DNA of 37,609 nucleotides from assembly GCA_027603945.1 (NCBI GenBank), contig JADIIU010000120.1:1-37609 (forward strand). The letters run 5' to 3'. Numbering within the stretch: the stretch's first letter is position 1; each line of letters begins with the position of its first letter. The notes beneath the pieces were generated by a model. It was not told the origin of the DNA, did no database searches, and worked only from the letters and a program-made list of their open reading frames with translations. Positions 1,191 to 36,558 of the stretch are shown one piece after another. This DNA is from Terramyces sp. JEL0728. Lineage: Eukaryota; Chytridiomycota; Chytridiomycetes; Rhizophydiales; Terramycetaceae. The position numbers and the translations under genes were made by a program.

Positions 1191-2132
1191 ATGGAATTTA
1201 TAGATTTGTGTGGTGGACTGCCTCCACTCGTATTATCCAGAGATTACAGAGATCGGGTTATTGCAGATACTAAATGGGAATGGAAACAGACGAGAGAGCA
1301 CTGTAAATTACACAGCTGGACAAAGGACGGTCAAACTATAGAGCCGCTGCCAACAACTCAAGCGGTAGAGTATACAGAAGAAGAATACGAATTGCTAAAG
1401 AGTATTTTGGATTAATATAGATCCAAATTGGACAAAGGAAGAGACCGATGAACTGCTATATCTCGTAAAGGAATTCAACCACAGATTCCATATCGTTAAA
1501 GATCGCTTTTCAACAGAGAAATCAATAATAGAGATTAAACAGCGATATTTCCAGATTAATAGGACACTGTTGAATCATCGGGAAAAGAAACGAAGCTTCA
1601 TTTTCGATGCAAGTAAAGAGGCAAAGCGTTTAGAAAACATCGAAAGATTGATTCATCGGTCCGAGGAAGACTTGGAAACTGAAGAATTGTTGTATAATCA
1701 AATCAAACAACGTGTGAATACAAATTACGATGATCGCCTGTACAAAATAATGTCGTTCAACCTTGAAGCTACAAATTCAATCGGAGAAAAGAGTAGATAT
1801 TGCTAATGTAGGCGCAAACCTCAAAAAAAAGAAAGTCAAAAAGGAAGGTGTGTATCTTGCTTCAAGACCGCTATTGAAGCAACAAAAAATAGCTTCGGTG
1901 CTGGAAGAGTACGGATACAGTAATTGCTACTAATATAGAACCTATTAAAATGCCAGGTGTCAATGTCATGGATCGCTATGAAACGCTGCAGTCCAATATC
2001 GCCATGCTTCAAGACCTGAAAAAGAGCATTGACAAGGTCCAGGTTGAAATAAGGAATAGCGACGGATTAAAGAAGCGAACGCACACCAATGTTTATCATA
2101 CCCCAAGGGACAAGAAGCAGCGCATCAATTAA
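1191..2132 (+). CDS. SWC4: SWC4/DMAP1-family chromatin subunit
   Basis: Shared subunit of the SWR1 (H2A.Z deposition) and NuA4 (histone acetyltransferase) complexes. Four exons join in frame to 294 aa after removal of introns 1402-1420, 1793-1811 and 1920-1938, each 19 nt. Visible homology to DMAP1 is the conserved KWEWKQ and HSW segment, then a SANT-like block (NPNWTKEETDELLYLVKEF then HRFHIVKDRF and IIEIKQRYFQINR), and a C-terminal helical region starting VYLASRP. The protein lacks roughly 100-150 N-terminal residues present in the human protein, consistent with reduction. An in-frame upstream ATG at 1110 would add a hydrophobic stretch unlike the family, so 1191 is preferred. Confidence 0.88.
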
Positions 2133-2301
2133 TAAAGGTCTGTTGACTGTCTGTGCTTAACCTTTAAAAAGTTTAAACCACCTTTGGCTACACTGGTATT
2201 GTCTATATTTCATGAGATCTATGAGATCCACGGTTACATGGGCTTGTTTCAACTTGCTGGTTTCATAAAGTCAAATTTACCTCTAGAAAAATTTGGAAAA
2301 T

Positions 2302-3012
2302 ATGTCCTCAATCGCAGAGAAAACACTTGCCAAGCAATTTAAAGGTACTACTTATTAACACAGAACTTTCTATCCATCCTATCCCAGGGTTTAATGTAGA
2401 ACTAAAGAACGACAATATTTTCGAATGGCAGTACAGATAAATTAATTTAGGGTTGGTATTATTGGACCGCCGGACACAATTTATCAAGGCGGATATTTCC
2501 TAACTACCTTGAAATTTCCTGAGGATTATCCTTTCGGCCCACCAACCTTTACTTTCAACTCTGAATTCTTTCACCCAAATGTTTATACTGACGGAAAATT
2601 GTGTATCTCTATTTTACATCCGCCTGGAGATGATCCATTAAGGTATCTTTTTTGTTGATAAGTGGGGAAAAGGCAGAGGAAAGGTGGAACCCAACCCAAT
2701 CCGTCGAAAGTATTTTGCTATCAATCGTATCGCTTATTAATGATCCAAATTGCTCTTCGCCAGCTAATGTTGACGCAGGTGTTATGTATCGCAAGGATAG
2801 AGACCAGTACAACGCAATTGTCAAGAAACACGTTGAAGAATCAAAAAAGAACATTCCGTTGGAAGTAGATATTCCAACCACAGGTAATTAGTATTAAAAA
2901 AGATGATCAGTATCAAGTGAAATATCAAAAGCAGGAAATGACGCCTGACGATGATTTCTGGTGTGAGGATGATGATGCGGAAAGTTTTGGAGTCGAGTCT
3001 GACGATGATTAG
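2302..3012 (+). CDS. CDC34: Ubiquitin-conjugating enzyme E2, Cdc34/UBE2R type
   Basis: E2 that works with SCF ligases to build K48 chains on cell-cycle regulators. Five exons give 210 aa; introns are 2345-2363 (19), 2431-2450 (20), 2643-2662 (20) and 2884-2902 (19). The UBC fold carries HPN at residues 78-80 and catalytic Cys88 in [11 protein letters not shown]. It is followed by the acidic active-site insertion GDDPLSGE diagnostic of Cdc34 and by an acidic C-terminal tail ([14 protein letters not shown]...). The acidic loop and tail distinguish it from Ubc7/UBE2G. The last intron removes a stop that would cut off the tail. Confidence 0.95.
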
Positions 3013-3087
3013 TATATATTGTGAAAATAAAGTAATTACTGGCCTATTTATTTGGTTAGCGCTCTGTTGTAGGATGCTGATTCCGTG

Positions 3088-3515
3088 ATGGATCAAACAG
3101 CTGGACCCACATCATATTATGATTCAAGAGTTGTCCTGGTCATGCAAAGACACATTAATCTAGGCTATCTATATATCTCTCATTTGTCTCCCATATAGCA
3201 ACCAAACCTCCACCAGATTCCATGCAAAAAAGAAAACAAAAATACAAAATCAAAAACAAGCTTTCCTTTGCCAAACTCTTGTCCCAGCACCAAGAACTGT
3301 ATGTAGATAAAAAAGGCAGACTGCAACTGCCGTCAAACGACCTGCTAGACGGAATAATATCACTGCCGAAATACAGAGTAGAGCCAAATGTTATAATAGC
3401 GTTGGGGATGTTGGTGCAGGAATTACAGTACAAGGAGGGAGAGTATAGTATTTTGAGTGACGAGCAGTTGGTAGGTGCCCCAAAGTACTCTGATATCCTC
3501 GGCCAAAATGAATAA
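3088..3515 (+). CDS. Hypothetical small protein, 97 or 135 aa
   Basis: I do not recognise this protein. The secure part is the open frame 3222-3515, starting MQKRKQKYKIKNK (a basic stretch), followed by a segment with two likely helices and strands (ALGMLVQELQYKEGEYSIL). In-frame coding seems to continue upstream. Joining 3088-3143 to 3164-3515 by removing a 20-nt GC-AG intron (3144-3163), whose end CATTAATCTAG fits the local branch/acceptor pattern, gives 135 aa. That upstream exon is inference; if wrong, the start is 3222. Its 3' end lies 32 bp from the convergent TRS65 stop. Confidence 0.45.
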
Positions 3516-3547: not shown

Positions 3548-5157
3548 TTATTCAATATAAATCTGCAGCGTATTCTTGAGCACAAACTCTTCATTGCTGC
3601 CTAGATCAAATACATTAATCGTTGGCAACTCGTGGTTTTTTCCTTGAATTACAATATAGTGAAGCATAATCAATCTGCACGATTTAGGAGGAATACTTTC
3701 AATCTGAACGAGATTCTCCAGGCAAATAATACTGCTGTTATTCAACTGTTGGTATTCTTGGATTAATTCGTCTTTTTGCTTGTAGAAATTGAATGAATAA
3801 TTGTCAATCTTTGGTTTCTGCTGTGGGATTTGGATTGATAATTTTCTGGGTAATAAACCTGTATTTGAAATCAAGAGTTGCACTGAAAACACTCTGTGCA
3901 ACTTGATTGGGGGAATAACTTGTTAGTAAAGTCTTACCGGAAAGTGCGAATTGCAGCCCAACAAAAGGAATCACTTCTTTCTGCTTGAATGCAGACTCAA
4001 ACAATCGACCATGATTCAACTGTATATTGTCTTTGGTCAATAGCCCGCCATCTTGTGAAAGAGCCAGCCGCGTACAAAAGTTTGAATTGATGATTTTATC
4101 CAATTTACACTTGATTGAAAATGTAATGCTTTTTCTACTAGAACTGACAAACATATCACTCATTGACAAATTCGTCTTTTCCGTGTCCAGATCGTTGTTA
4201 AGTAATCGGATATTAAACAGGATATTCAATTGATCTTCTGGTTCAAGAACCATTGGAAACTAAATCAATATAGAAATACTCGAGAGAGAGTGTTGATTAA
4301 GGTGCCAGGCATATCAACTTGAATATCTTGAATTTCCAATTTGATTGGGGATTGCACCGTCAGCGATAATAAACTATTGAAATTTGAAAATGAAGACACT
4401 GATATAAATGAATTCAAGAGCGGCAAAATTGGTAATATCTTGCTACAGTGTTTCTTTAGTACTTCAATTGTATTATCAAATATCGGTCTGTAGTTGTTTG
4501 GAATTGCAAGTTTGGGTACCTCGCCCACCATTTCATCTATATTAGTTGCAATTACTCTTCAATAATCCCGCAAATGCGTTTATTCCATCAAAATCTTCTG
4601 GATCGCAAATCTCTGTGGTCTGTTCACTGTAAATTTCTGATACATGACAAGTCAGAGTCATTCTAGTCTTTAACGACTGCGAAGCTCGTTTTCTGCCAAT
4701 GTCTATCTCAGAACTAATAGGAAACAGGACATATTTACTATTTACTAGTGGTGTAAGATTATTGTAGTATTCGGAAAACAGCACTTGGTCATCTTTACCT
4801 ACAGTTGGTATTGCTGGTATTTCTATCCCTAGACTAGCGAATTTGTCTGCTATTTTACTTCCTTTTTCTTTGGTAATGAATTGCGTTTGAATTATTGCAG
4901 AGTCCACTTCGCCAAACGTGCTGATTACATGTATTTCCAAGTTATTTGAATATTCCAGAAGCTGCTGGTCGGTGAAATTGTGTTGTTTTAGATAAGCAAT
5001 CACGTAGTACGTTAGAGTTTCATCTGGGTTAGTGGAGAGTACCGTAGTATATTACTTGTCGTTGTTGCAAAGATATCAGTGTACCGATGTCTGTAGAGTC
5101 TATTGATGGGATGAGGATATCGTAATCCGCGGTTTGAAATACTTGCTTTAATGTCAT
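3548..5157 (-). CDS. TRS65: TRAPPII subunit Trs65
   Basis: Fungal-specific subunit of the TRAPPII Rab GEF complex acting at the late Golgi. Five exons give 510 aa; introns (minus strand) are 5024-5042, 4537-4555 and 3919-3937 (19 nt each) and 4260-4279 (20 nt). The first residues (DILIPSIDSTDIGTL then QVIYYDETLTYYVIAYL) line up with the yeast N terminus. The C terminus (IPPKSCRLIMLHYIVIQG then INVFDLGSNEEF) matches the terminal beta-rich domain that binds the rest of TRAPPII. The middle is poorly conserved. Assignment rests on both ends matching and on length close to the yeast protein. Confidence 0.85.
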
Positions 5158-6512: not shown

Positions 6513-8116
6513 ATGGCTTCAATACAAATGGTATCGCCATGCTAACACAGGGGACAAAACTATCAGAGATACTAGAAATGATCCATGCGAAAGCAGATTC
6601 CCAATTCAGCTCATTCTTCCTCTCTGTATATTTCACCATTGCTTTCCTCACAGTACTAGTTGCAAGACAAAGTATCTTTTCATTAACCAGTACCATTTAT
6701 AATACAGCCAAGAGAAAGGACGCAACAAATATTTTACACAAGAATATTATCGTTGATTTGCGGGGCATATTTCCTGACATTGGAGTTTAATGACAATATT
6801 CTCATATTCTTTTTTATACAGCATTGTGCGGATTATTGCTTGCAAATTATGTACCAGTCAATTGAGACTATAAGGTTAAATGCGGAGCCGCCAAGTTTGT
6901 TATTAGTAACGTAGATATCTTTGAATGGGCTGCTGTGTTATATTTTGCCCCGGTATCAAATCCGGAATTTCAGCTGTCATTATCAGTGCTAATGAAAGTG
7001 TCTGTATTGCATTCTACCATGCTAAACTTTTTTGGATTGGCTGGAATCAGCAACTCACATCGGTAACACTACGGTAACACAGATTGATACCAACAACCAT
7101 TTCTGGATGTCTGCAGATATCCTTCTTTTTGCATTGCTGCTACTATAATAGACCGTACCCGTCGATTTTGTACATGGAGAGATTGCCCGAACTGTTAATT
7201 TTATCCTTGGTATTGCTATTTTCACTCATTTATTACTTTTGTACTATTAGCTAACACTAGGCGTGTTTATTTCAAGAGTAGGGCTAAAAATGCCAATGTT
7301 TTTGCAGATTGGGATTCAAATGTCTGACGATTTTTCGTTCGTGTTGAGGAAATGGGGAATTGAATTGGCTGGGTCTCCGCTTAGAAATGGATTGCTGAAT
7401 GAGGAAGAACCAATCTTGGCTCCAATCGGTGTTTCATTGCCTCCCAGGCTGCTTGTGAATCCATTCAAGAGAAATCCATTCCTGGTAGCTGCAAAAAGCA
7501 CAAAGAAGCCTTGGTGGCATGTAAAAAGCATTGAATCAAGTCCGCCAGGAGATACTTTGGCTGCCGTAAAGTATGTGTTTAAGCTATGGAGTATACTGCT
7601 ATACATTCCCTACAGCTACGTTTCGTTCCCAAAGAAACCTCTGCCAAAGAGAGATGAAGACGATGAGATAGATGAAGATTATATCCCAGGTATTTCAAAT
7701 TAACGATAGAAGTGGAGGACGTCGATGAATCGGAAGACAGTGAATCAGATTGTGACGACAATTCGAACGAAATCTACAAAGAAATATTTGACTTGGCCCT
7801 GGAACAGCACAGCGCAAAAACTCCACTCGAAGCTTATTCTTCACTCTTTCAAAACCTAGACCAGCCAATTACCACACGATCCCGAAGATCAGGGTTCCAA
7901 GAAATTAAACCAAGAAACGAGAGGCCGCCAGAAAAAGCTAATACGTCTTGCTGTGTAGTGTGTTTTATGGAGGAGCGGTGTATTGTGCTTCGACCTTGTG
8001 GTTGTCTTTGTCTCTGTGACTCTGGCTGTAGGGAAGATTTGGCTGCTAGGAGGCTAGATCATTGTCCTTGTTGTAGGAGACCAATTGAAGGGTACCAAAA
8101 GATCTATAAACCATAA
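6513..8116 (+). CDS. Multi-pass membrane RING E3 ligase, Asi1/Asi3-like
   Basis: Resembles the fungal inner-nuclear-membrane Asi ubiquitin ligases that degrade misplaced membrane proteins. Secure 20-nt introns are 6531-6550, 6895-6914, 7063-7082, 7241-7260 and 7690-7709. One further junction between about 6751 and 6822 is ambiguous: removing 6785-6821 (37 nt) or 6752-6785 (34 nt) both restore frame, giving 488 or 489 aa. The N-terminal half has several hydrophobic segments (VYFTIAFLTVLVA; LLILSLVLLFSLIYYFCVF) and family landmarks IFEWAAVLYFAP and RLIPTTISG. A conserved cytosolic/nucleoplasmic block and an acidic stretch follow. The protein ends in a RING finger (CCVVCFMEERCIVLRPCGC ... CPCCRRPIEGYQKIYKP), whose position at the extreme C terminus and GY-K ending match Asi proteins. 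No symbol given because Asi1 and Asi3 cannot be told apart. Confidence 0.82.
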
Positions 8117-8274: not shown

Positions 8275-11011
8275 ATGACCACAACAGAAGAAAAGAAAGA
8301 GGAACCAAAGCCAGCCAGCAAAAAGGAAGAAAAAAAGGAAGAAGAATTGGTAATCAAAGATTAACAAAAGTCTGAAGAAGACTTGGTTTTGAAATCCGAA
8401 CTGGAAATGTTGGTGGAGCGATTAAAAGTATTTTAATTTTGATTGCAGGAAAACAAGCAAGAATTACATCGTCCTGCGTTGGAAACTTTACGAACTTTGA
8501 TTAGGACTTCAACTTCATCAATGACTTCGGTTCCAAAACCGCTGAAATTCCTAAGACCACATTACAGTGGTCTCCAACAAGTTTTTGAAAGTTGGAAACC
8601 ATCAGATACCAAGAAATTCTTGGCTGACACCCTCTCCGTTTTAGCAATGTCTTATTCAGACGAAGGGACACGGGATTCATTAAAGTATAGACTGTTAGGG
8701 ACTCAAGAGGATGCTGGATCTTGGGGACATGAATATGTTCGGTATTTACAATCTAACCTAGCCATTTATCTGCAGAAATTATTGCTGAATACCAATTTTT
8801 ATCAGAAAACGAAAACCAAGCACAATTAAAGATTATTCTTGAACAAGGATTGAAGCTTGTTCCATTCTTTATGTCTCACAATGCGGAAGCGGATGCCTGT
8901 GATTTGCTGATTGAACTGGAATCTTTGGACAAGTTGCCTAGCTTTGTAGATAAAGTTTCATTCCCTCGTGTTTGCTTGTATATTGTTGGGTAAGCATTGT
9001 TCACATTAGATGTGCTCCGTACGTTACTCCGCCGGATGATGTCGTTATTTTGAAAACAGCTCACCAGATTTACAAGAAATTCAATCAACATCCATCAGCA
9101 TTACAAATCGCTTTGAAATTGAATGATTTGGAACTAATTAAAAATGATTTCAATACCTGTCCAGATCCACTTGTAAAGAAACAATTAGCTTACATGTTGG
9201 CAAGACAGCAACTGGTAGTTGAAACTGAAGATGAAGAGTTGCAAAACATCTTGAACAACTCTACATTGTCCGAACACTTTATGGCTCTGGCTCGCGACTT
9301 GGATGTAGTTGAACCTAAGCTGCCTGAAGATATTTACAAAACACATTTGGAAAACACTCGTATTTGTTTTTAACGATAGGCCCTGGATTAGCAGCCACTG
9401 TTGATTCAGCAAAACAAAACCTTGCATCTACCTTTGTTAATGCGTTCTTGAACTGTGGGTTTGGTGCAGATAAATTGATGATCGGGGCTGAAGATAGCAG
9501 CTGGATCTTTAAGAATAAGGATCACGGCATGATGAGCGCCACTGCTTCACTGGGGTCTATTCTTTTATGGGATGTGGAAAACGGGCTTACTCAAATCGAT
9601 AAATATTTATACTCGAATGAAGATTACGTAAAAGCTGGAGCGCTCTTGGCTATCGGGTTGGTATCTTCTGGCGTCAGAAATGAGTCTGATCCTGCCTTAG
9701 CGCTATTATCTGAACATGTTAATGGCGACAAAGAAATCCTCCGAATTGCAGCCATTGTTGGACTTGGTATTGCTTATGCTGGAACTGCCCGTGAAGAAGT
9801 TCAAGATTTGCTGTTGCCTTTGGTGGCTGACACTGGAATTACCATGGAATTGTCCAGTTTGGCAGCACTGTCCCTAGGTCTAGTGTATGCCAGCTCGTGT
9901 CACGGTGAAATCACATCAACCATCTTGCAAACATATATGGAAAGGGATGAATCAAATCTCAAGGACCCATATGCGCGTATGATGGGTGTGGGGCTAGCCT
10001 TATTATTCTTGGGTAAACAAGAGTCTGCTGAAGCCCCAATCGAAACTCTAAAAGCCATTGAGAACCCTCTGGCTAAGCAAACCGAAGTCATGGTAGAAAT
10101 CTGTGCATATGCTGGAACGGGTAATGTATTAAAAGTACAAAAAATGCTACATCTTTGCAACGACCACTTGGACGCTGAAAAAGAAGATCCGCTGTTCCAA
10201 GCATTTGCTGTTATCGGTATTGCCATGATTGCCATGGGTGAAGATATCGGCCAAGAAATGGCGCTTCGTCAATTCAACCACTTGATGCACTATGGCGAGC
10301 CAGTTATTAGAAAAGCAGTCCCCTTAGCAATTGGTTTGCTGTGTGCTTCCAATCCGCTGGTCAACATCCTAGATCTCTTGTCCAAATATTCCCACGACCA
10401 CGATCAGGATGTATCCATAAATGCTATTTTCGCAATGGGTCTTGTAGGTGCCGGTACAAACAATGCTCGTCTAGCACAGATGCTCCGTCAATTAGCTGCA
10501 TATTACCACAAAGAGCCAAACCACTTGTTTATGGTCCGTATTGCGCAAGGATTGCTTCATATGGGCAAAGGGACATTAACCGTAAATCCTTTCACTTCAG
10601 GAAGGATGCTCATGTCCATTCCAGCCACCGCATCGCTTTTCATCTTGCTAACTTCGTTTACCAGTTCAAAGACATTCTTGTTTGGAAAGGCACACTACTT
10701 TTTATATTACCTTATTCCATCTATCTACCCACGATTCCTAATGACTCTAGATGAAAGTGGCAAAGTACTTCCAGCGACTGTCAGAGTTGGTCAGGCAGTT
10801 GACGTTGTTGGACAAGCCGGTCGTCCAAAAACCATTACTGGTTTCCAAACTCATACAACTCCGGTATTATTGGCATATACAGAACGTGCAGAATTAGGAA
10901 CAGAAGAGTTCTTGAGTGTTTCCCCATACTTGGAAGGATTTGTAATATTGAAAAAGAATCCAGAGGTAAATTTTATTAACATAGTATGAAGCAGATGTTG
11001 AAATGAAATAA
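8275..11011 (+). CDS. RPN1: 26S proteasome regulatory subunit Rpn1 (PSMD2)
   Basis: Scaffold of the 19S base; binds ubiquitin, UBL shuttle factors and Ubp6. Seven exons give 871 aa, within the family range. Introns are 8350-8370 (21), 8428-8448 (21), 8742-8761 (20), 8990-9009 (20), 9360-9379 (20) and 10966-10984 (19). After a Lys/Glu-rich N terminus, conserved segments appear in order: [50 protein letters not shown], the toroidal PC repeats ([19 protein letters not shown] onward) and [20 protein letters not shown]. The final intron supplies the short last exon, ending EYEADVEMK. The Lys/Glu-rich linker found between PC repeats in animals is missing. Confidence 0.97.
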
Positions 11012-23777: not shown

Positions 23778-26698
23778 TTAGCTGTTTGGGATTGCTTCGG
23801 CTTGGACATGCTGCTTCTTTTTGGAAAACTTTCTATCTGAAATGTTGCTTTTTGGAGATTCTGTTCCTTTCTTGTCCGCAGCGGCCACAATGTATCTATT
23901 TTCAATAACTTTATCTATTGTTGGCGAATTTTCATTTTGATCGACAATCACTGGGACTGATGGATTTACACTTATTCTTTTCAATCTTGGAGAGGGACTT
24001 GCGAGCTGCCCCTCATACTTTGATTTAATAGTGTCCAGCGTGTTCTCTAGCTCTTCAAATTCGCGCTCTCTTTCTGCCAAGTCTATTGGTGCCAGCCCAC
24101 TCTGGGTCAGTCTTCCTGGTTGAACGTCTGACCCCCTTTCGGAATTTGATCGTGGCCTTGTTTTTGGGGAAGTATTTACTTGTGCAGTTTGGGCATCAAA
24201 CTTTGGTTTGACGTTATCCAAAACCTTCTCCAATTCATTAAATTCAACCTCTCGTTTAGTTGCGCTAATTCGCATTGCAATCGATGGATCTTTCTTTCTA
24301 TCTGACTTTGGACTTGCCAACGACATTAATTTTTCCATAGTGCTGCTATGTTTAATTTGATCTGTTGCAGTTTTCTGTGATTTGTCTGCAAATGGATTCA
24401 AAGCGGATATCGCCTCAGCAACAGATTTTCTCCTATGTCTCGGAGTATTTGCCACCACTAATAAATTAGTGCTATCTCTCCCAACAGAGTTGTTTGAGCT
24501 TGTTGGATGCAATCCTTGCGAAGTAGACTTGGCTTCTGCACTTTGATCGTTGTATTTTGACGAAAAAGCATCAAGTACTTGTTCCATATCCTTGAAATCC
24601 TTTTCTTTCTCTGCTGCATCCTGTTTGGATTTGTCAGAAAAAGGGTTATACTGATGAACTACTTCTTGAACGGATGTTCTTCTAGCACGAGTGGCAGGAA
24701 CAGCTTCCTTTGGAATATTTCCAGTTGAAGCATCTGCAGGAGATTGGATGTCAACGGAATTGATTGAAATTACAGGTGACGCTTTGAATTGTGCACTTTG
24801 ACTAGTGTATTTAGAAGAAAATGCGTCCAGTACATTTTCCATGTCCTTAAAATCCTTTTCCCTCTGTGCTTGTGATTTCAGCAAGTCTGCACTTTCACTC
24901 TTTGCAACTCCCGATTTCGCTCCAACTGTTAAACTAGCTCTTCTAACAAACTGAGAAGATTCTGATTTCTTGATTGGTTTTGATTCTGGTGCTTGCTTCA
25001 TTGTTGCCGATTGGTTGTCGATTCGTCCCGGTGCTTGATCTAGCGACTTTTCTAATTCCTTGAAAAACTTTTCTTTCTGTTCTTTGGTAGCGGTATCGCT
25101 TTTTTCCTTCTTTTTTAAAATTGCACCTCCGGTAGTTTGTGCCCTTCCAATTGCAAATTGATTAGTCTCTCCCTGCTTAATAGTCGGTCTAGAATGAACA
25201 TCTTTACCCAGGTACAATAGTGGTTGATCAACTACAACAGCACCTGGCTCTTCTGGTTGATAGTTTTCATTCATTGTCTCCAACGGTGGTTTTTGAAGTA
25301 TAGTGTCGGGTGTTTTTGCGTCGTTTGTAGAGGTTACAGATTTGCGAGGTATTGATTGTCTCGGATTCATGTTTATTGTATCAGTTGGGCTTACTGCATC
25401 ATTCTTGTTTGGAAAGTTACTTGATTTTGATGGTGGTAATGACAGTTTTGGAACATTGACAGGTGGGGTAGTTGCTGAAAGTCTCTTGGAGTACGTAGCG
25501 GTTTGTGAATCATATCGTGGCTGAAAAGCATCTAAAATCACATCTACTTCTTGGAAATGTATTTGTTTCATTTCTTCTTTAGATAAAGCATCTTGCATTG
25601 GCATTCTGCCTCCCATCCTTTCCAAATGGCCCTGCATTCTCCCAAAGAACATTGTTCTTTGCTTTTCTTCGCTTGTCTCGTATCTTTGGTTGTTTAACTG
25701 TCCTTCTACTCTATCTAATTTTTCGTGGATAATCGCAGCCTGTTCATTCTTTAGCATTTGGGGAGATTTCCATTCCTATGTTAAAAAATACTTGCTTGCT
25801 CCGTCATTCTGTGCTTGACTTGTTTTTCAATCACATTTCCAAGGATTTTTGATTGGAAATGGGTTGTTGAAGGGCCAACTTCCGCGCATTGGTCTGTCAT
25901 CTTTGAAGCTGACAACTTCCAAATCAACTCCATTGTTTTTTCCATGTCATTTTCTCGCTTAATTGCTCTTTGGTCCTGGTATGAACTATTTCCAGCAATA
26001 AGTCTATCGATGAAAGCAAGAATCTGAGCTTTAGACAATTCCAATTGTTTTCTGGAAGACATTTCACTGGTTTGAGAGACATAGCGAGGCGAGGTAGTCC
26101 ATAACCGTTCTGTAGCAGCCATGATTTGATCCAATGCTTCTAATTCCAGTGTCATTGATTTCTTTGTGTGTTTACCGCTTAATACATTCATGATCTTTAA
26201 TATCCTTTCCCATAACTTTGATTGCTCTTCCGTCAAATTCTTTGTATTTAGTTTACTGTTGAGGATAAAGTCTGAACACATCAATTGGAATTGTTCGTAT
26301 GGAATCTTGTAATATTTTGGGGTTTCAATCACCATATCTGACGCGATTGTAGGTAGTTCCGATGGAATGGTTTCAAAAAACAGCATTATAGTATTAGACA
26401 GCACTGCAAGCAACGGTGTATAGGTTTCTGCACTGCTTACCTTTCCATTCTTCTTCTTTCCTGAAGGAGGTGTTCCAGTTCCTTTTGAAAAGAATGATTT
26501 TAATTCCGATGGAGATTTCAGTTCTGAGGGAGATTTCAGTTCTGTTGGTGAATGAACTTCGGTTGGTGATTTTAATTCTTCGAACTCTGATTCCTCGACC
26601 AGCGTTCCCAAAGTATCCAGACATCTCTGTCCCAATTTGTATAGAGTATTGAGCACCTTGTAGTCCTAAAGTTACAGAGGTATTACTTGTGTGTCCAT
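23778..26698 (-). CDS. 959-aa protein with a new about 25-residue repeat
   Basis: No known family recognised. Three exons join to 959 aa: a 12-nt first coding exon (MDTQ), a 21-nt intron (26666-26686), a long exon, a 20-nt GC-AG intron (25776-25795) and the last exon. The protein is hydrophilic and probably largely disordered. It contains about eight to eleven copies, mostly 60-130 residues apart, of a motif of the type EKDFKDMENVLDAFSSKY followed by xxQSA. Clear copies are the pair with LDAFSSKY, and variants VILDAFQPRYDSQTA, KSLDQAPGRIDNQSA, KVLDNVKPKFDAQTA and NTLDTIKSKYEGQLA; earlier ones are more divergent. Near the N terminus is a six-residue tandem repeat (KSPTEV, HSPTEL, KSPSEL, KSPSEL), whose SP sites could be phosphorylated. 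A scaffold or cytoskeletal role is only a guess. Confidence 0.7.
25776..25795 (-). other. GC-AG intron of 20 nt
   Basis: On the minus strand this begins GCAAGT, the classic GC-AG donor, and ends TTAACATAG, the common branch/acceptor string of this genome. Removing it joins two long frames (ending RMTEQ and starting EWKSPQ) in phase 0. Using the internal GT instead gives a 16-nt intron and an immediate frameshift. Confidence 0.75.
26495..26580 (-). repeat. 18-bp tandem repeat encoding SP-containing hexapeptides
   Basis: About four tandem copies of an 18-bp unit encode KSPTEV, HSPTEL, KSPSEL and KSPSEL within the 959-aa repeat protein. Copy-number variation between strains would be expected. 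Confidence 0.6.
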
Positions 26699-27027: not shown

Positions 27028-27654
27028 ATGATTGCGGAAATCATAAAGTCTGGCAAGTACAATGATATATTGGCAATAATTAAAGGGTTCAGAAATGGTG
27101 CAGTATACGGTAACACTCATTTAAAATAAAGGAGCCAAGATTCGATTTCCTCATGCTTTGGTAATGACTTTTCTATTTCGCCGTTCCGACCCAAAGACAA
27201 TGGCCAAGCAAATATTGCAATTAACGTACCAACATTCAAAGAACCTGGCCTTCTTTGTTACCATTTACAAATCCTTGCTGTTGGTTCAGAGAAAAATCAA
27301 AGGAGCAGAGCATAATGCAGATTCATTCATTGCAGGGTTAATTGGAGGCTATATTATATTTGGAACTGATAATGCGGTTAATCAACAAGTATTTTTTACT
27401 AATTCAAGATTGTCTTGTACTTGTTTTCGCGTATTAGCACTGGTCTCGCCAGATTGGCGCACGACAAAGGATATGTACCAGCTCCTGACTATTCGTTTGG
27501 TATGTTTGCTGCGGTAACTTGGGGTGTTGTTATGTGGTTGTTCAGACACAACCGCAACAGTCTTCAAGGCGGATTACAAGCTTCCATGCAGTACTTGTAT
27601 AATGATAGTGACAAGTTTACAGATTTGCGCACGTTGCTCTGGCACAATAAATAA
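27028..27654 (+). CDS. PXMP4: Peroxisomal membrane protein PXMP4 (Tim17/22 family)
   Basis: Integral peroxisomal membrane protein of the Tim17/Tim22/PXMP4 superfamily; exact transport role unclear. Three exons give 194 aa, near the human 212. Introns are 27110-27131 (22) and 27389-27408 (20). Conserved segments are LAIIKGFRNGAVYGAKIRFPHALVMTFLFR (conserved across the first splice junction), the YQHSKNLAFFVTIYKSL region, FIAGLIGGYIIFGTDNAVNQQI, and LARLAHDKGYVPAPD through WGVVMWLFRHNRNSLQ. Absence of this gene in baker's yeast helps exclude that lineage. Confidence 0.93.
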
Positions 27655-27890: not shown

Positions 27891-29244
27891 ATGGGAATAC
27901 AAGGGCTGTTGCCATTACTCAAAGAAATCCAAAAGCCAATCAATCTAGAGTCGTTGAAACATCAATCAGTTGGAATTGATGGATATGTATGGCTACACAA
28001 AGGAGCGTTTGGATGTGCTTTGGAATTACACACTGGAGTTCCCACAAAAAAGTACCGGATATTTAACTAGGTATGTCGATTACTGTATGAAAAAGATTGA
28101 TCTACTGCTTTCCCTAGAGATATGGCCAGTGGTTGTATTCGATGGTGGATATCTACCCTTGAAAGAAAAAACAGAAATCGCTAGAAGGACGAGCAGGACT
28201 AGTAAGAGAGAGCGCGGACTGCAGCTGCTGAAAGACGGAAAGAAAGAAGCTGCCCGCGAAGTGTTTCAAACTTGTATAGATGTCACACCAGAAATGGCGC
28301 TTGAATGGATATTGGAACTAAGGAAAAGGAATATTGAATATTATGTCGCACCATATGAAGCAGACGCTCAGTTGGCATATCTGAATAAAACAGGGGTTAT
28401 ATCGGCAGTAATCACGGAAGACTCTGATTTATTGTTATTTGGATGTCAAAGAGTAATATACAAGCTGGATCACCAAGGCAACGGACTGGAGATTAACCTA
28501 AGCGATTTATCTCAGATAAAAGCTCTGCGGTACTTGCCCCATGAAAGATTCGTTCAAATGTGCATATTATCTGGCTGTGATTACCTCAATTCCCCTCCAG
28601 GAATAGGTTTAGGCAAAGCAACTAAACTGTTAAAGAATGAAAACGCCATTGATTTAATTGGTAAATGGGATAAATGGAAAACAGTGATTGATGCTCCAAA
28701 ATTGGAACTGGGTTATTTGGAAAAGTTTAAAAAAGCTGAAATGGTTTTCAAACACCAGAGAGTATATTGTCCAAATGCAAAGGCATTAAGGCCATTGAAT
28801 GATTTTCCCGAAGGATTTGAACTGTCGGACGAGATTTCAGAGTATATTGGCCCGTAGTTTATAGTTTAACCTAGCGATTTGCCAGCCTACGATGCCCAAA
28901 TGATTGCTGAAGGAAATATGTGTCCAATCAGTAGAGAAAATTTCGTATTGAAACCACTAGACAGTAAAAAAGAAAATATTGGTCGCAAAAGACTTTCTTT
29001 GAACGAACCCTTTAAAGTTTCAAAACATTTCGGAAAAGGAGTGCAGATTTTGAGCAATAGAACTAATTCAAGTAACAGCAATACCGATTCCTCAGTGCCA
29101 AGTAAAGAAGTTGCGTTGGAAAGCAAATACAGATCAAAAGTCTATTCGTTAAAGCAAGCAGTGCCAAAACCTGCAGTCCCAAAGGTACAGTCCAAGTATG
29201 TAGTTTCCCCATATTTCCCAAAGAAAAAGGTAAAGCTTGGCTGA
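27891..29244 (+). CDS. EXO1: Exonuclease 1
   Basis: 5'-3' exonuclease/flap endonuclease (XPG/FEN1 family) of mismatch repair, double-strand-break resection and meiosis. Three exons give 437 aa; introns are 28052-28070 (19) and 28854-28874 (21). The N-domain begins MGIQGLLPLLK, with catalytic-site segments GIDGYVWLH, VVVFDGG, APYEADAQLAYL, ITEDSDLLLFG, SGCDYLNSPPGIGLGKA. The conserved KHQRVYCPN and YIGPDLP follow. The C-terminal tail after about residue 335 is much shorter than in yeast or human but keeps a basic end (SPYFPKKKVKLG) that could be a nuclear localisation signal or an MLH1/PCNA contact. Confidence 0.96.
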
Positions 29245-29360
29245 CTATCAGAGTATTTTGGACCTGTTTCAGCGCAAAGAGTAGGTTGTAAGTCGTAGAT
29301 TAAGCTCTAAAATACAATTATACCATAAGCTTTTTAATAAAAAGGAATTTATTCAAAAAA

Positions 29361-31121: not shown

Positions 31122-32219
31122 ATGATTGAAATTGCAGGAGATAAAAAATCACTGCAGGCACTAGACTTGAAAGAAATCAAATCCCACTTGGAAACCAATT
31201 ACGTCTCTGTTAAAACCCACACCCCATTTGCCTACAGGGATTACCTTATCAATTTCAATTACAATGAACAGATTCATCAGTTGTCCCCCAATGATGAGTT
31301 TGTCACGTACGAACTTTACGATTCGATAGAAGTTGAACCAAATTACAGCCTGTACCGACTGCCATTCAAATCGTTTTATTCTTTGTATGAACAGCTTTAT
31401 TATAAAGGCAATATCAAGCATTCGCTGCTGGACTTTGTAGATTCAATCGCTCTATTTTCCTCAAAAGGCATAACCAAAGTATCAGTTAATAAGCTGGTGC
31501 TGCTCTATGGACCACCAGTAAAGCGTATTTAATGATAGGGTATCAGATTGCTGATTTAGGGACTGGCAAGACATCGCTTGCCAAAGCTGTAGCTCAAAAG
31601 ATTTCAATCTACCGACCGTCAGTACTGGTTGAAATCAATACAAACTCATTATTGAGTAAATTCTATGCAGAAAGCTCAAAACTAGTAATCCAGGTATTTG
31701 AAAAAATATACGACTTGATGAAGCACAAGTTTGTAGTTGTGCTAATGGGTAATTGAAATTAATGCAGACGAAGTTGAAAGTTTAACTGCAGCACGCAAGA
31801 CTGCTGTTTGTGGGCTGGAACCAAGTGACGCAATCCGCGTAGTCAATACGATTCTTACCCAAATTGACAAGTTGCAATCCAAGAGCAATGTACTAGTAAT
31901 AGCAACATCGAATATTACTGAAGCCATTGATGAAGCTTTTTTGGATAGAGCTGATTTAGCATTATTGATCGATAACCCTAGCAGTGAAGCTATTTACCAA
32001 ATCTTGTATGGCGGACTGAAAGAGCTGAGTGAAAAGAAATTGATTGCTGATATGGTTTGTAACTGCGATGAGCTGTGGAATGTCAGCAAGGAGTTGGAAC
32101 GAAAGAATTCTAGCGCTCGTAAAGTTGGTAAATTGCTGCTAGTGGCCCACGCAACAATCATTCAAAAAGACCAGGCTTCATACGCAGAATACTTGGATTC
32201 AATTGCTAAACTAGTTTGA
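31122..32219 (+). CDS. PCH2: AAA+ ATPase Pch2/TRIP13
   Basis: Remodels HORMA-domain proteins (Hop1, Mad2) in meiosis and the spindle checkpoint. The coding parts join to 345 aa after removing 31518-31538 (21), 31540-31559 (20) and 31749-31767 (19). Residues 1-120 form the HORMA-binding N-terminal domain, including the family segment LYRLPFKSFYSLYEQLYY then HSLLDFVDS. Walker A GPPGTGKTS (about 130-138) is completed only if the single base 31539 is kept between the first two introns. Walker B is VVLMDEVESLTAAR (Asp196-Glu197), followed by EPSDAIRVVNTILTQID and sensor-1 ATSNIT. Its stop lies 8 bp from the convergent HEM12 stop. Confidence 0.93.
31539..31539 (+). other. Candidate single-nucleotide exon in PCH2
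   Basis: The base G at 31539 lies between a 21-nt intron (31518-31538, GTAAAG...TTAATGATAG) and a 20-nt intron (31540-31559, GTATCA...CTGATTTAG). Keeping it gives CCA CCA G|GG ACT GGC AAG, i.e. the invariant PPGTGK of Walker A. Skipping it shifts the frame. Both flanking introns follow the length and branch rules of this genome. Confidence 0.7.
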
Positions 32220-32227: not shown

Positions 32228-33397
32228 TTATTTCAACTTCTTTGATGATATGTCTCTCTAATGTTAATTGTATTTACAATTGCTTCCAAATAGAATTTCA
32301 AGTGCTCTGGGTCGTGGTCTGGATACATCCCATGGCCCAAGTTGGCAACATACTTTTCAACTCCGAATGCTTCAATCATTCTTTCAACGTTCTTGTAGAT
32401 TGTTTCTTTGCTTCCGTACAACAATGATGGGTCGGCATTTCCTTGCAATACTTTGGTTTTTGCAGCTTCCCTCGTCTTTTTAGGATCCATAGTCCAGTCA
32501 ATTTGAATAACATCAAATTTAGTCTTGGCAAGGTTTTCAATTGCATAATGAGAGCCTCTTGCAAATATGCTAGATGGGACGCTGTATCCTAATGCATCTG
32601 TTTTTTCCTTTACCTTGTCGACGATTTGAATAAGATAAGGTAATACAAATTCATTAAACAATTGCGCAGACAGTTCGCCAGAATTAGATTCAAAGACTTG
32701 ATACAGCTACATTATAAATATTTACTTGTGCACCAGCTTTTACTTGTCCAACCAAGAATGGAATAATGACATCAGTAATCTTTTGAAGTAAGATTCTACT
32801 TTCTTTTGGATATTTGAATAACCAGGATTTGGCTTTGCTGTAGGTTTTACTTCCACTTCCTTCAATCATGTAAGCCATCAACGTCCATGGGCCGCCAACA
32901 AACCCGTATAATGGCACTCGGCCATCCAACTTTTGTCTGGTAAGGGTGATTGCTTCAAAAACATACCCCAAAGTTGCATCGACATCCACTTTTTCAGTCA
33001 GTCTCTTTATATCGTCGGGTTGTCTGATCGGCTCAGGGAAAGTAGGTCCTTTTCCTGGAACCATTTCGCAAACAAGTCCCATTGCTTGTGGAACAACCAT
33101 AATATCACTGAAAATGATTGAAGCGTCAAGCAAATCCCCGTATCTGTCAATTGGCTGTAAAGTAACTTCGCATGCAAGTTCCGGTGTTTGGCAAACTTTA
33201 AAGAATTCATTATTTGCTCTTCCCTTTCTGTATTCTGGCAAGTACCGTCCAGCCTGTCGCATAATCCAGACTGGGAGTTTGTGAATCTTTTCGCCTTTAA
33301 TTGCTTGAAGGATCAATTTGTTTTTCAAAGGAGGAAAGTCCTTATCATGCAATGCTTTGTATTTTTCTGTTCGTGCTTTCTTTTCTGTTGGGGACAT
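32228..33397 (-). CDS. HEM12: Uroporphyrinogen decarboxylase
   Basis: Cytosolic haem-pathway enzyme converting uroporphyrinogen III to coproporphyrinogen III. Three exons give 376 aa; introns are 32707-32725 (19) and 32258-32277 (20). Active-site residues are present: Arg47 and Arg51 in PVWIMRQAGRYLPEYR, Asp98 in IIFSDIMVVPQAMG, Tyr176 in WTLMAYMIEG and His349 in NLGHGMYPDHDPE. The last intron replaces an apparent unspliced ending with the exon RDISSKKLK, which resembles the C terminus of the neighbouring paralogue, supporting the splice. It lies 33 bp from the stop of its tandem paralogue upstream. Confidence 0.95.
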
Positions 33398-33430
33398 TTT
33401 TTAGATTTCAAAATCAAAAATCAATTTTAT

Positions 33431-34679
33431 TTAGTAAAAGTAGTACATCATATTGTTTGCATCTCTAGGATCTAATTCACAGGCACTTTCTTTCATCTTT
33501 TCGGCAGAGATTTCCCGCTATCGTTAATCAACAATTACAATAGAATCCAAGAACATTTCTACTGCCTCTGGGTCGGTATCCGTGTCTATATCGTGATAAA
33601 TATGGGCCACGAGTTTGTTGGTTGTATATTCCGTAAGCATATTTTCAATTTTTTTGTTAATTTCTTGTCTATTGGAGCCTGTCAATTGAGAAAGATTGAA
33701 ATAAGCCAAAAGGACTTTGCCTCTGGATATTTCCCGCTTTTCCTTTGCATCATACCAAGCGGGGGTTTGGATTAATTCGGCATCGGTGTAGCACAATCTG
33801 TCAAAGACATAGTGGTTGGTTCCAACAAAGACACTGATTTGACTCTTGTATCCAATATCATCCAAACGTGATTTTGCTCCTACTAAAAGTTGAATCATGA
33901 ATGGATAGATGTATTGGTCAAACAAATCCTTTGGCAGTTCTTCAGCATTAGGTTCGTGGACATGCAGACTCTATTATAAGCATAAATTACTTGACAGCCC
34001 ATTCGCTGTTGATCCCACATCAAACCTGCTTGGAAATTCACAATTCTTTGAAGCAAGACATGGGAATGCACCCTTCTATTTCTTAGCCATTCTTCGGCAA
34101 TTGCTGATTTTCTGCAAGCTCTTCCCTCCAACATGGTGCAAAATATTGTGTATGGCCCTTCAATGATACCCACTAAAATAGCTCTTCCGTCCAGTAGTGT
34201 CCTTGCTTTTACAATACTTTCCATAATATAAGAAAACTTTGCATCGGCATCAAATTCCTTTGGCGGCAACCTCCTTAAATCCTCTGGCTCTCTGATTGGG
34301 TTCTTTAATACTGGTCCATACGCCGATAGCTCTACCGTCAACCCCATTGCTTGCGGGATCATCATTGGGTCGTAGAACATTGCAACTCCGTCAACTTTCC
34401 CTTCATATTTGATTGCTGGGATTACTGTTGCCTTTGCAGAAAGTTCTGGGTCTTGGCTGACTCGAAAGTATTCATTCAAGTCTCTAACCGTACATTCTTC
34501 TGCTGTTAGAAACACTCACCTGGTAAATATCGTCCATGTATCCACACTGGTATTCTTGGTAATTGCGACCCTTTGTTTGCATGAATCAGTAATTTGTTCT
34601 TGGTGTCTGGAAAATCTCTGTCGTACTTGGTCTTGTATGTGCTATTTCTACTGCGCTTTAGCAGAGGACTTTGAAACAT
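33431..34679 (-). CDS. Divergent uroporphyrinogen decarboxylase paralogue
   Basis: Tandem duplicate of HEM12 on the same strand. Four exons give 395 aa; introns are 34500-34519 (20, GTGAGT donor, NAGNAG acceptor), 33971-33990 (20) and 33518-33538 (21). The fold is kept (IPQAMGLTVEL, IREPEDLRRL, TDTDPEAVEMFLDSI), but the active site is altered. The PVWIMRQAGRYLP motif is shortened to PVWIHGRYLP, losing one substrate-binding Arg. The tyrosine of the AYMIEG motif is Thr175, while Asp97 and a His in HIYHD remain. Sequence has diverged far from the neighbour throughout. It is probably inactive as a decarboxylase or has a changed substrate. Confidence 0.85.
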
Positions 34680-34971
34680 TAAAAAAGTTTGTGCAAGCTC
34701 TTGCCTCTTTGAAATCACAAACACAAGATTCAAAATACAGCGGAAGCATTATACCAATTCAAAGTGCTGGCCAGAAATGCTTTGAATATATCAGTCGTAG
34801 AGTGGGTCGCGTGTTCAATTACAAAAGCTTGACTGAATTCCCAATTACGAATTCCATATTACGGTACATATTGCAAGTTAGATGCTGTATTAAGAGAGTT
34901 GTCCGACAATTTCTGGTATGCAAAAAGGATACTGCAGTCAATAAATCATGGGCGAAAGAAATGTTTAGAGT
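34680..34971. other. Gap between the PRMT gene and the UROD paralogue
   Basis: A 292-bp region that includes the promoter of the UROD paralogue. A plus-strand open frame runs through it (about 34636-34996, containing FETLKKFVQALASLKSQ), but it overlaps both flanking minus-strand genes and has no recognised homology. I do not call it. Confidence 0.35.
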
Positions 34972-36265
34972 TTATTCAAATAATGCATCCAATTGAGAGT
35001 TTCCAGAGTCAGGTTGATACAATCCAGCGTATTCCGGTTTGGCAACGTGTTCTGGAGGCGGCTGGTCAAAGTAATATGTTTGCTCGTGAAGGGCCCACTC
35101 GCCAGTACGTTTGCTAAAGTTATTGGTCTGATTGCGATTAAAAAATTCATGGTCAAGTTTAGGATCAGAGAGAATTGTGTTTCCTGTAACAATTTCTGCT
35201 TTGATGTCGTAGGAGCGCATTGGGTTGGCTACCATTCTAATCCATCCTCTGATCGTTTCAAAAGCGTTGACAGCAAGAGGTTCTTTGTTAATCAAATACT
35301 ACCTTTCAGCACCATTCTAACTTGGTGCCAATGTGTCTTTTCAGCGTGCGGAGCAGTGGAAAGAATATAACCGCCAAGGTTAATATCAAACCAAGCACCA
35401 ATACCATGAATTAGCCCAGTGTATTGTGCGACCCAAGTAAAAGGAATAATAATATCTTGAATTTCTTCTTTGGTAACAGTTCTAAAATCTACTGCGTGGG
35501 CATGTGCTGGGGATAATAGGATTCTAGCATCAAATCCACCAACAATCGGCTAATTTAAACCCTAATTACCTGTCCAAACACTTCATCTTTGGCATCTTTG
35601 GCTAAAGGCGAAAAGTCAACTCCATAGAAATCTTGTTGCTCCCAGAAACGTACTATGTTAGCATAAAATACCTTTTGCCATAGTCTGCGACCACAAATTG
35701 GCGTCAGAGAATGGGGCAACATAAATGGTACCCATTGAAGGAACCTAAATCAGCCAAATAATACCATTGCACCGCCAGGTTTCAAGAACCGATCTCTAGC
35801 GACAATATAGCTTTCAATCATCCTTTCATGAACCAGCAACACACCGATAGGTTCACTAATTAATGTATCGACTTTGGGTAATCTGTCGACGTCTTCAATT
35901 TTGCTTTTAATAACAGTCAATTTCCCTTTCAACCAATCATTGGTAACTCCAACATGATCCATTATCTTTTGAATTTTGTCAGCCATTCCACTTGCTTCAA
36001 TTGCATAGACATGTTCAGCGCCAGCTTTAACTGCAAAATAAGACAAGATTCCACTTCCAGCCCCCAAATCCATTACTGTCTTTCCCATGAACAACGAACT
36101 ACTGTTGGATAGAATTGCGGTCTGATATAACGACGTACGAATTGAATCATTCAGCATGTTTTGTTGGTGCACAAATTGCGCATAATAACTGAAATAAGTA
36201 GGATCTCTTTCATCATTCTGCGCTGATTTTTTACTCATTTGCCTTTCCATTGGAGTGTCTTCCAT
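34972..36265 (-). CDS. CARM1: Protein arginine methyltransferase, CARM1/PRMT4 type
   Basis: Type I arginine methyltransferase of chromatin and splicing factors. Five exons give 404 aa; introns are 35745-35764 (20), 35653-35671 (19), 35550-35569 (20) and 35283-35302 (20). The SAM-binding motif is VMDLGAGSGILSYFA, the post-I acidic residue lies in YAIEAS, and the double-E loop is SEPIGVLLVHERMIESY (Glu138 and Glu147). The YFSYYAQFVHQQNML start, HVHAVDF-like motif (AHAHAVDFR) and THWHQVR (THW loop) fit PRMT4 better than PRMT1. The N-terminal PH-like domain and the C-terminal transactivation tail of animal CARM1 are absent. Confidence 0.88.
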
Positions 36266-36295
36266 TTTTCAGTGATTGTTTTTTTTCGAGATCAA

Positions 36296-36558
36296 ATGAA
36301 CACTGCTCAGTTGGAACACTTGCAAGCTAAATATACCGGAAGTGGAAATGCCGATACAACCAGATAGTAATAATTTATTAAAATAGTGAGTGGTTGACAC
36401 ATCAGCATAGAGATTCAATTGCGAGTTACGTGGGCCACAACACACTTGTCTCTTACTTTGCAGTTGCAGAAAATGAAAGTATAATGAGAGTGAAACACAA
36501 GTTATTTCAAAAATATATTCAGCCTTGCGGTACTCCTGTAGAAAATGACAATGCATAA
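36296..36558 (+). CDS. SF3B5: Splicing factor SF3b subunit 5 (SF3b10/Ysf3)
   Basis: Small subunit of the U2 snRNP SF3b complex, which clamps the branch-point helix. It is invisible as a long open frame because a 20-nt intron (36367-36386) splits it. The joined protein is 80 aa, the human one 86. Residues MNTAQLEHLQAKYTGSGNADTTR-(Y)EWL (in two parts across the junction), HQHRDSIASYVGH, YFAVAENES and YIQPCGTP match SF3b10 almost position by position. It starts only 31 bp from the divergent PRMT gene and ends 14 bp from the convergent sensor-like gene. Confidence 0.95.

Follow-up and report, generated by a model that had tools for sequence, protein, structure and literature searches.

Ultra-short introns have been described in nucleomorphs (18–21 bp), mikrocytids (16–17 bp), and heterotrichs (15–16 bp) (PMC10245619). 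In the 37,609-nucleotide (nt) stretch of DNA analysed here (the window), contig C120 of the 15.0-Mb, 231-contig assembly of Terramyces sp. JEL0728, genes are interrupted by segments of 19–22 nt which, judging from the sequence, we take with very little doubt to be major (U2)-type spliceosomal introns that shrank to about this length in a chytrid lineage. Terramyces is a genus of the Rhizophydiales, phylum Chytridiomycota, and chytrids of this kind are free-living saprobes. It represents a further lineage of the known ultra-short-intron kind, in a kingdom for which no report was found, our search for ultra-short introns in any fungus having covered the open-access literature, with most subscription papers outside its scope.

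The introns of chlorarachniophyte nucleomorphs (18–21 bp) resemble those of Terramyces in being spliceosomal and in spanning nearly the same narrow length range, however they reside in a relic nucleus with >800 introns in ~300 genes (PMC10245619), whereas the nuclear genome of Terramyces measures 15 Mb and holds, by our estimate, ~20,000 introns. Stentor (15–16 nt) shares a genome-wide narrow class, GU..AG ends, and a U2 RNA with conserved GUAGUA, with the introns of Terramyces being 4–6 nt longer and their branch A lying mostly at position 14–16, compared with position 10–11 in Stentor, for which avoidance of steric clashes around the small lariat has been suggested (PMC9505925). Narrow size and conserved motifs are also common to Terramyces and the mikrocytids (16–17 bp), the latter being parasites whose spliceosome is strongly reduced and whose introns total 224 (PMC10245619), unlike Terramyces, where both U1-C and a U2AF65-like gene were found and short introns number 1.85 per kb of coding sequence. 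A reduced spliceosome or genome is a trait of nucleomorphs and mikrocytids but, on the published accounts available, not of Stentor, and so does not truly define the kind.

Amongst fungi, a survey of 644 genomes reports 4.5 introns/kb for Gonapodya and a mean length of 63 bp for Cryptococcus; Terramyces shares the intron-rich background of chytrids, whilst a 19–22-nt class is unmentioned in the accessible part of that survey (PMC8476143). In the microsporidia, which are related to fungi, introns are scarce and relatively short (PMC10245619). The accessible text on another Rhizophydiales chytrid, with 15-Mb genomes and a protein-level completeness of 40.5%, contains the word "intron" once, as a software option (PMC13391722).

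Length distribution of the short introns

Our sample comprised the window and 20 loci of 10 kb each from 20 of the 231 contigs (237,609 bases in total), 18 of them taken at a single fixed offset from approximately each fifth contig and two picked for holding U2 and Prp8. A first count of all GTA..[YTRAY]..AG pairs by length, made without a gene model, gave 90, 129, 81, and 45 pairs at 19, 20, 21, and 22 nt, where the background is 30.4 per length, with 33 at 18 nt and 34 at 23 nt flanking the peak. No comparable length peak was seen in the same sample for the donors GTG, GTC, GTT, GCA, GA, or AT. A second count, over the window and 32 loci, employed a stricter branch motif and expected values from a 200–999-nt baseline, and returned 225 segments of 19–22 nt where 29.7 were expected, with a deficit at 10–18 nt (21 against 66.9), no excess at 23–25 nt (22 against 22.3) or 26–30 nt (23 against 37.2), and a weak excess at 31–40 nt (101 against 74.3). 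A differently built second motif pair likewise gave 166 segments of 19–22 nt (43.1 expected), together with weak, unexplained excesses (z 2.4 to 3.8) at 31–40, 61–100, and 151–200 nt.

The same length class emerges from gene finding. A coding-potential gene finder permitting any GT..AG intron of 12–300 nt at a single fixed cost, free of motifs, placed 52 of its 114 introns at 19–22 nt, and when given a flat prior of 12–120 nt did so for 65 of 110 GT-AG introns, with 11 control dinucleotide pairs yielding 3–11 introns of that size. Trained motifs combined with a flat prior that extended to 300 nt produced 632 introns in 87 models, 278 of them at 19–22 nt. The narrow class forms most introns once length is penalised, accounting for 307 of 385 when the penalty applied to lengths >60 nt, and for 361 of 400 (86/153/86/36 at 19/20/21/22 nt) in the final models of the 237.6-kb sample, where it applied to lengths >26 nt. 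These final models (n=149, with 195 kb of coding sequence) hold 1.85 short introns/kb coding, and 72% contain at least one. Scaling to the genome gives 22,814 short introns, a figure rounded to ~20,000 because the motif reward can exceed the intron cost. Introns >26 nt remaining in the 20 loci number three (45, 58, and 85 nt), the 85-nt call appearing false, and 17 calls of 13–18 nt in the final run (4 among the 68 window calls and 13 among the other 332) are not trusted. The stricter motif has a similar density in the window (0.74/kb) and elsewhere (0.70/kb). The first-pass annotation had described the short introns as genome-wide, a term that rests on a sample and must accommodate the longer introns discussed below.

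Homologous proteins and the introns of the window

Three window genes, RPN1, PMT2, and PDK, with 24 introns (5/13/4/2 at 19/20/21/22 nt), were examined junction by junction by rule-free spliced alignment, in which homologous proteins were aligned to the DNA with gaps of any length ≥9 nt and unconstrained splice sites. Of the 24 introns, 20 came out as separate gaps in one or more homologues and a further two were merged into a joint 40-nt gap, with most of the recovered 19–22-nt gaps slidable to GT..AG. In RPN1 (five homologues), the introns at 8742, 8990, and 9360 are 20-nt gaps in 5/5 alignments, that at 8428 a 21-nt gap in 4/5, and that at 8350 a 21-nt gap in 2/5 (18, 12, or uncovered in the others), whilst the intron at 10966 lies outside the aligned ends and has frame and motif support only. 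The RPN1 intron 9360-9379, previously offered as a test junction, was reproduced exactly (GTATTTGTTTTTAACGATAG, 20 nt). In PMT2 (four homologues), 19785, 19487, 18988, 18740, and 17923 were recovered in 4/4 alignments, 19288 in 3/4, and 18589 in 1/4, with 19936, in the variable N-terminus, recovered in 0/4. The PDK alignments (four homologues) show eight 19/20-nt introns each in 1 to 3 of 4 and the joint 40-nt gap covering two further introns in 2/4, several of them also placing other gaps, such as 9, 11, 13, 72, 87, 93, and 202 nt.

Two deposited Terramyces sp. JEL0728 proteins, P0122 (pyruvate dehydrogenase kinase) and P0241 (protein O-mannosyltransferase), map to the window with 334/334 and 636/636 aligned residues identical. 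The deposited models of this contig already use many 19–22-nt introns (6/7 in each of the two), each model also containing one wrong exon skip (62 and 155 nt) and failing to reach the C-terminus. Six spliced window proteins have Pfam matches, amongst them URO-D over 2-345 of 346 and UQ_con over 2-139 of 140, with a Trs65 match falling under the cut-off.

Gene models place 61 introns of 19–22 nt in the window (18/27/9/7 at 19/20/21/22 nt), two of which (13611-13632 and 29230-29251) are doubtful, and three hand-corrected additions (PMT2 18740-18759, PMT2 18589-18608, and GC-AG 25776-25795) bring the total to 64, somewhat fewer than the 67 (18/35/9/5) of the first-pass annotation. They are listed below, where "model" denotes the final gene-model run and "presumed" marks gene names that are our assumption.

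1402..1420, plus: 19-nt intron, DMAP1/SWC4-like gene; model, Pfam SANT_DAMP1 on spliced protein
1793..1811, plus: 19-nt intron, DMAP1-like gene; model
1920..1938, plus: 19-nt intron, DMAP1-like gene; model
2345..2363, plus: 19-nt intron, ubiquitin-conjugating enzyme gene; model, Pfam UQ_con on spliced protein
2431..2450, plus: 20-nt intron, ubiquitin-conjugating enzyme gene; model, Pfam on spliced protein
2643..2662, plus: 20-nt intron, ubiquitin-conjugating enzyme gene; model, Pfam on spliced protein
2884..2902, plus: 19-nt intron, ubiquitin-conjugating enzyme gene; model
5024..5042, minus: 19-nt intron, Trs65-like gene; model, Pfam match below cut-off
4537..4555, minus: 19-nt intron, Trs65-like gene; model
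4260..4279, minus: 20-nt intron, Trs65-like gene; model
3919..3937, minus: 19-nt intron, Trs65-like gene; model
7241..7260, plus: 20-nt intron, presumed RING-type gene; model
7690..7709, plus: 20-nt intron, presumed RING-type gene; model
8350..8370, plus: 21-nt intron, RPN1; 2/5 alignments, model
8428..8448, plus: 21-nt intron, RPN1; 4/5 alignments
8742..8761, plus: 20-nt intron, RPN1; 5/5 alignments
8990..9009, plus: 20-nt intron, RPN1; 5/5 alignments
9360..9379, plus: 20-nt intron, RPN1; 5/5 alignments, GT-AG slide in 4/5
10966..10984, plus: 19-nt intron, RPN1 (last); frame and motif only, model
11816..11834, plus: 19-nt intron, presumed trehalose-phosphate synthase-like gene; model
12515..12534, plus: 20-nt intron, same presumed gene; model
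12653..12672, plus: 20-nt intron, same presumed gene; model
13007..13026, plus: 20-nt intron, same presumed gene; model
13144..13163, plus: 20-nt intron, same presumed gene; model
13611..13632, plus: 22-nt intron call, doubtful, same presumed gene; model only
15229..15248, minus: 20-nt intron, PDK (pyruvate dehydrogenase kinase-like); P0122, 20-nt gap in 1/4 alignments
15176..15195, minus: 20-nt intron, PDK; P0122, joint 40-nt gap with 15138..15157 in 2/4 alignments
15138..15157, minus: 20-nt intron, PDK; P0122, separated from 15176..15195 by an 18-nt exon
15006..15024, minus: 19-nt intron, PDK; 3/4 alignments
14870..14888, minus: 19-nt intron, PDK; 2/4 alignments
14800..14819, minus: 20-nt intron, PDK; P0122, 2/4 alignments
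14349..14367, minus: 19-nt intron, PDK; P0122, 3/4 alignments
14184..14203, minus: 20-nt intron, PDK; P0122, 3/4 alignments
14050..14069, minus: 20-nt intron, PDK; 20-nt gap in 1/4 alignments, 23-nt gap in 2/4
13943..13961, minus: 19-nt intron, PDK; 2/4 alignments
19936..19956, minus: 21-nt intron, PMT2 (protein O-mannosyltransferase); P0241, 0/4 homologues
19785..19804, minus: 20-nt intron, PMT2; P0241, 4/4 alignments
19487..19506, minus: 20-nt intron, PMT2; P0241, 20-nt gap in 4/4 alignments, GT-AG slide in 3
19288..19308, minus: 21-nt intron, PMT2; P0241, 3/4 alignments
18988..19009, minus: 22-nt intron, PMT2; P0241, 4/4 alignments
18740..18759, minus: 20-nt gap GT..TG, PMT2; 4/4 alignments, no GT-AG placement
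18589..18608, minus: 20-nt intron, PMT2; P0241, 1/4 alignments (others 17, 26, 17 nt)
17923..17944, minus: 22-nt intron, PMT2; 4/4 alignments
21506..21526, minus: 21-nt intron, presumed LRR-type gene; model
21343..21364, minus: 22-nt intron, presumed LRR-type gene; model
21097..21118, minus: 22-nt intron, presumed LRR-type gene; model
26666..26686, minus: 21-nt intron, repeat-protein gene; model, reading of joined gene
25776..25795, minus: 20-nt GC-AG intron candidate, repeat-protein gene; GCAAGT donor, joins both halves with frame restored
27110..27131, plus: 22-nt intron, presumed membrane-protein gene; model
27389..27408, plus: 20-nt intron, presumed membrane-protein gene; model
28052..28070, plus: 19-nt intron, XPG-family (EXO1-like) gene; model, Pfam XPG on one exon
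28854..28874, plus: 21-nt intron, XPG-family (EXO1-like) gene; model, 33 nt in another gene-finder run
29230..29251, plus: 22-nt intron call, doubtful, XPG-family (EXO1-like) gene; model only
31518..31538, plus: 21-nt intron, TRIP13/Pch2-like AAA gene; model, GPPGTGKT restored gap-free
31539..31539, plus: 1-nt exon (G), TRIP13/Pch2-like AAA gene; needed for Walker A motif frame
31540..31559, plus: 20-nt intron, TRIP13/Pch2-like AAA gene; model, GPPGTGKT reading
31749..31767, plus: 19-nt intron, TRIP13/Pch2-like AAA gene; model, spliced reading
32707..32725, minus: 19-nt intron, uroporphyrinogen decarboxylase gene; model, Pfam URO-D on spliced protein
32258..32277, minus: 20-nt intron, uroporphyrinogen decarboxylase gene; model
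33971..33990, minus: 20-nt intron, presumed second URO-D-like gene; model
33518..33538, minus: 21-nt intron, presumed second URO-D-like gene; model
35745..35764, minus: 20-nt intron, protein arginine methyltransferase gene; model, Pfam on spliced protein
35653..35671, minus: 19-nt intron, protein arginine methyltransferase gene; model, Pfam on spliced protein
35550..35569, minus: 20-nt intron, protein arginine methyltransferase gene; model, Pfam on spliced protein
35283..35302, minus: 20-nt intron, protein arginine methyltransferase gene; model

Removal of 25776-25795 and 26666-26686 leaves the repeat-protein gene with one reading of 978 amino acids from an upstream ATG, and a hand count from its second in-frame Met reproduces the 959 amino acids proposed earlier; GC-AG as a class is not enriched overall. 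The two uroporphyrinogen decarboxylase-like genes are adjacent on a common strand (32228-34679), with Pfam support for the first. Two divergent gene pairs, presumably histone H3-H4, are intronless in the models (window 11-856 and 1907-2753 of locus L023).

Two overlapping, near-identical contigs, C199 (L035) and C111 (L036), show 102 substitutions and 7 indels across 9,904 columns and are probably alleles that the assembly did not merge, recent duplicates being the other reading; no second copy of the window was found for the 5.7 kb tested. Four of the indels lie outside gene models and one, of 11 nt, lies inside a model ~20 nt from its predicted end, with the remaining two being single-base indels inside predicted introns of two genes (21 -> 20 nt). 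The events within introns are few, and their direction is as expected. Peptide inserts in relatives were also considered as retained introns and rejected, GT-AG fitting 2/30. The P0123 insert YEFLIS at a Terramyces intron position, equal to an 18-nt intron by protein alone, is suggestive only, and the Globomyces insert YDVADFISR does not coincide with the position of any Terramyces intron.

Intron anatomy and competing explanations

The donor consensus of 278 introns is AAG|GTAWTT (+3 A ~0.9, +5 T ~0.5, +6 T ~0.6), with G at +5 in only 0.14 (0.12-0.21 when split by length). GTAAGT and GTATGT are common donors elsewhere; here both are rare, GTAAGT being found in 10/361 short introns. A branch-like motif, TAAY/TGAY, complementary to the GUAGUA of U2, lies at an almost constant position, its A (assigned by motif score) falling 13-15 nt after G1 in 334/361 short introns and leaving 5-6 nt downstream in 296/361, and therefore no room for a pyrimidine tract. 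The three phases contain 159, 119, and 83 of the 361 introns, internal exons have a median length of 193 nt (n=287), and neighbouring models lie a median of 122 nt apart (128 gaps); the genome is compact yet not extremely reduced.

The U2 RNA, with its GUAGUA intact, and the U5 RNA are canonical (140 and 86 bits, respectively), and a Prp8 PROCT domain, U1-C, and a U2AF65-like gene were found in the genome, the last scoring 252 bits over 68-471 where the family cut-off is 310, a shortfall probably due to the introns that interrupt the gene. The models of Prp8 (partial), U1-C, and the U2AF65-like gene themselves contain 1, 3, and 4 ultra-short introns. As regards a possible reduction of spliceosome or genome, the analysis covered a handful of components, of which U1-C and the U2AF65-like gene were seen, in a genome of 15 Mb. 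The short introns look U2-type by sequence, with U12-type donors followed by AG at 19–22 nt not enriched (GTATCC 1 against 1.8 expected, ATATCC 3 against 4.2) and AT-AC ends giving 11 introns of 19–22 nt in the dinucleotide-pair test, inside the control range; U11/U12 RNAs were not searched.

In the proposed mechanism, U1 and U6 would select AAG|GTAWTT and U2 would pair with a branch motif just 13-15 nt downstream, forming a lariat loop of perhaps ~13-15 nt, with the AG 5-6 nt beyond the branch presumably used in the absence of a pyrimidine tract. The lower size edge may reflect the room needed for 5'-site and branch-site contacts on a single short RNA, and the narrow upper edge may stem from deletion bias, from a preference of the spliceosome for such spacing, or from both. 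SMU1 and RBM17 are cited elsewhere as short-intron factors (PMC12862383). The earlier proposal that the spliceosome works here below usual steric limits holds relative to usual fungal introns, but not relative to the 15–17-nt introns published in other eukaryotes (PMC10245619, PMC9505925).

Several observations weigh against a splicing interpretation, which is drawn from DNA and protein sequence alone. The flat-prior run also called 331 introns of 31-300 nt, at approximately one per length, which we read as probable skips across intergenic DNA that fuse genes, because the gene number is too low and no length is prominent. The motif reward may outweigh the intron cost, such that some short calls are surplus, and the branch expression is missing from 57/361 short introns. 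The PMT2 gap 18740-18759, which starts GT and ends TG, has no GT-AG placement in 4/4 alignments, and reflects either an erroneous base or a 3' splice site of non-canonical type. Finally, neither U1 nor U6 RNA was found in the whole genome by covariance model or core patterns, nor was the U1-70K N-terminal domain, although the failure to find U1 and U6 does not show absence, because the tool is uncalibrated for chytrid U1/U6. The U6 of some fungi contains introns, which would conceal it from the patterns used. Candidate U6 matches on C199 and C111 lie in coding sequence and are not U6. In L028, a stretch close to the U6 core looks like coding sequence and has no Rfam match, and the U1 pattern matched 3 times, compared with 4 times in the control direction.

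Of the competing explanations, the one with most left to it accepts the introns but holds that a size-specific job, such as splicing-coupled control via nonsense-mediated decay, keeps them short, rather than a neutral floor. Retention would bring an in-frame stop in 57/66 of the 21-nt (3n) introns, compared with 47/83, 80/132, and 9/26 of the 19-, 20-, and 22-nt introns, however the first of these figures is biased because an in-frame stop that forces the call makes the gene finder readier to accept a 3n intron, and we consider such a job unlikely.

Far less credible is the suggestion that assembly or base-calling errors broke the frames, leaving the segments as artefacts of forced repair: indel errors do yield frame breaks, and the PMT2 gap lacks AG, but errors would not make GTA..TAAY..AG at a single length, and the segments are present in both C199 and C111, with 1-nt differences inside two. 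Equally little credence can be given to segments that stay in the mRNA and are skipped in translation by programmed bypassing or frameshifting. Translational bypassing elements exist in other organisms and could remove short stretches, yet the splice-site dinucleotides, the branch motif at near-constant spacing, and the spliceosomal genes fit splicing, as do several segments per gene in all three phases. Contamination by a nucleomorph-bearing alga, ciliate, or mikrocytid, the groups to which published ultra-short introns belong, can be dismissed with similar assurance, given that the RPN1 exon shares 87% identity with Kappamyces sp. JEL0829 and 84% with Globomyces, that PDK shares 90% with Boothiomyces sp. 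JEL0838, and that the Terramyces sp. JEL0728 proteins match the window over every aligned residue. The claim of the first-pass annotation that these are spliceosomal ultra-short introns in a fungal nucleus is thus borne out by the length spectrum, the dinucleotide controls, the rule-free alignments, the contig indels, and a gapless restored protein, described below.

Longer and composite introns, and their significance

The size of 19–22 nt is a preference rather than an absolute ceiling, to judge from RPS3 (uS3), in which a 45-nt intron with a GTAAGT donor (L004 4814-4858, plus) is spanned by a gapless alignment to a chain of the 40S protein S3 (9p8h). As this intron is supported by homology, longer introns can evidently be spliced, and the strict claim that all introns are 19–22 nt is ruled out.

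A different form of longer insert occurs in the PP2A catalytic-subunit gene (L014 7943-9056, minus; G000:C55:20001-30000), where 109 nt at the CEK|AREIL junction (L014 8855-8963, minus) consist of five head-to-tail GT..AG units (22, 21, 24, 21, and 21 nt), without remainder and with zero-length exons between them. The spliced protein aligns without gaps to PP2A-C chain 2ie4_C (query 5-306, chain 8-309). No such split was possible in any of 200,000 base shuffles or 20,000 dinucleotide shuffles, the insert having been chosen post hoc, and the fifth unit lacks the branch expression, such that a chain scan counts four. This arrangement suggests removal by stepwise splicing. Recursive splice sites and fungal stwintrons are likewise complex introns removed in consecutive reactions, but the PP2A insert, with five head-to-tail units and no donor split by an internal intron, is unlike the stwintrons described in the accessible accounts (PMC5126111, PMC9024468), and is a possible new twist on the known kind.

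In the TRIP13-like gene, an intact Walker A motif requires the removal of 21 and 20 nt and the retention of the single G at 31539. The spliceosome may be tuned to introns of ~20 nt, cutting the PP2A insert unit by unit and tolerating the 1-nt exon of the TRIP13-like gene, with longer inserts being modular; we advance this tentatively, as the sequence leaves it a minority prospect. If it is true, intron gain at AG|GT junctions would add length in whole units. Head-to-tail pairs were rejected as a general feature, two-unit chains numbering 21 in 299 kb of real sequence against 47 in the reversed control, and because such chains are not enriched the PP2A insert is a single striking case, not a class. 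A pair in an ABC-transporter-like gene (L013, 21+21 nt) has frame support only, and an apparent pair in L004 is read instead as one 22-nt intron (1837-1858, minus) that interrupts the start codon (AT|G) in a gene we take to be CCT6-like.

These introns have a bearing on annotation, with both mapped deposited proteins of the contig truncated and carrying a wrong exon skip, and prediction programs set to a longer minimum intron would be expected to break genes here. Fungi have supplied many spliceosome structures. Terramyces offers a fungal system for probing the minimum intron size that a spliceosome can excise, and, as a chytrid that retains the spliceosome parts found, opens the lower size limit of splicing to study in fungi.

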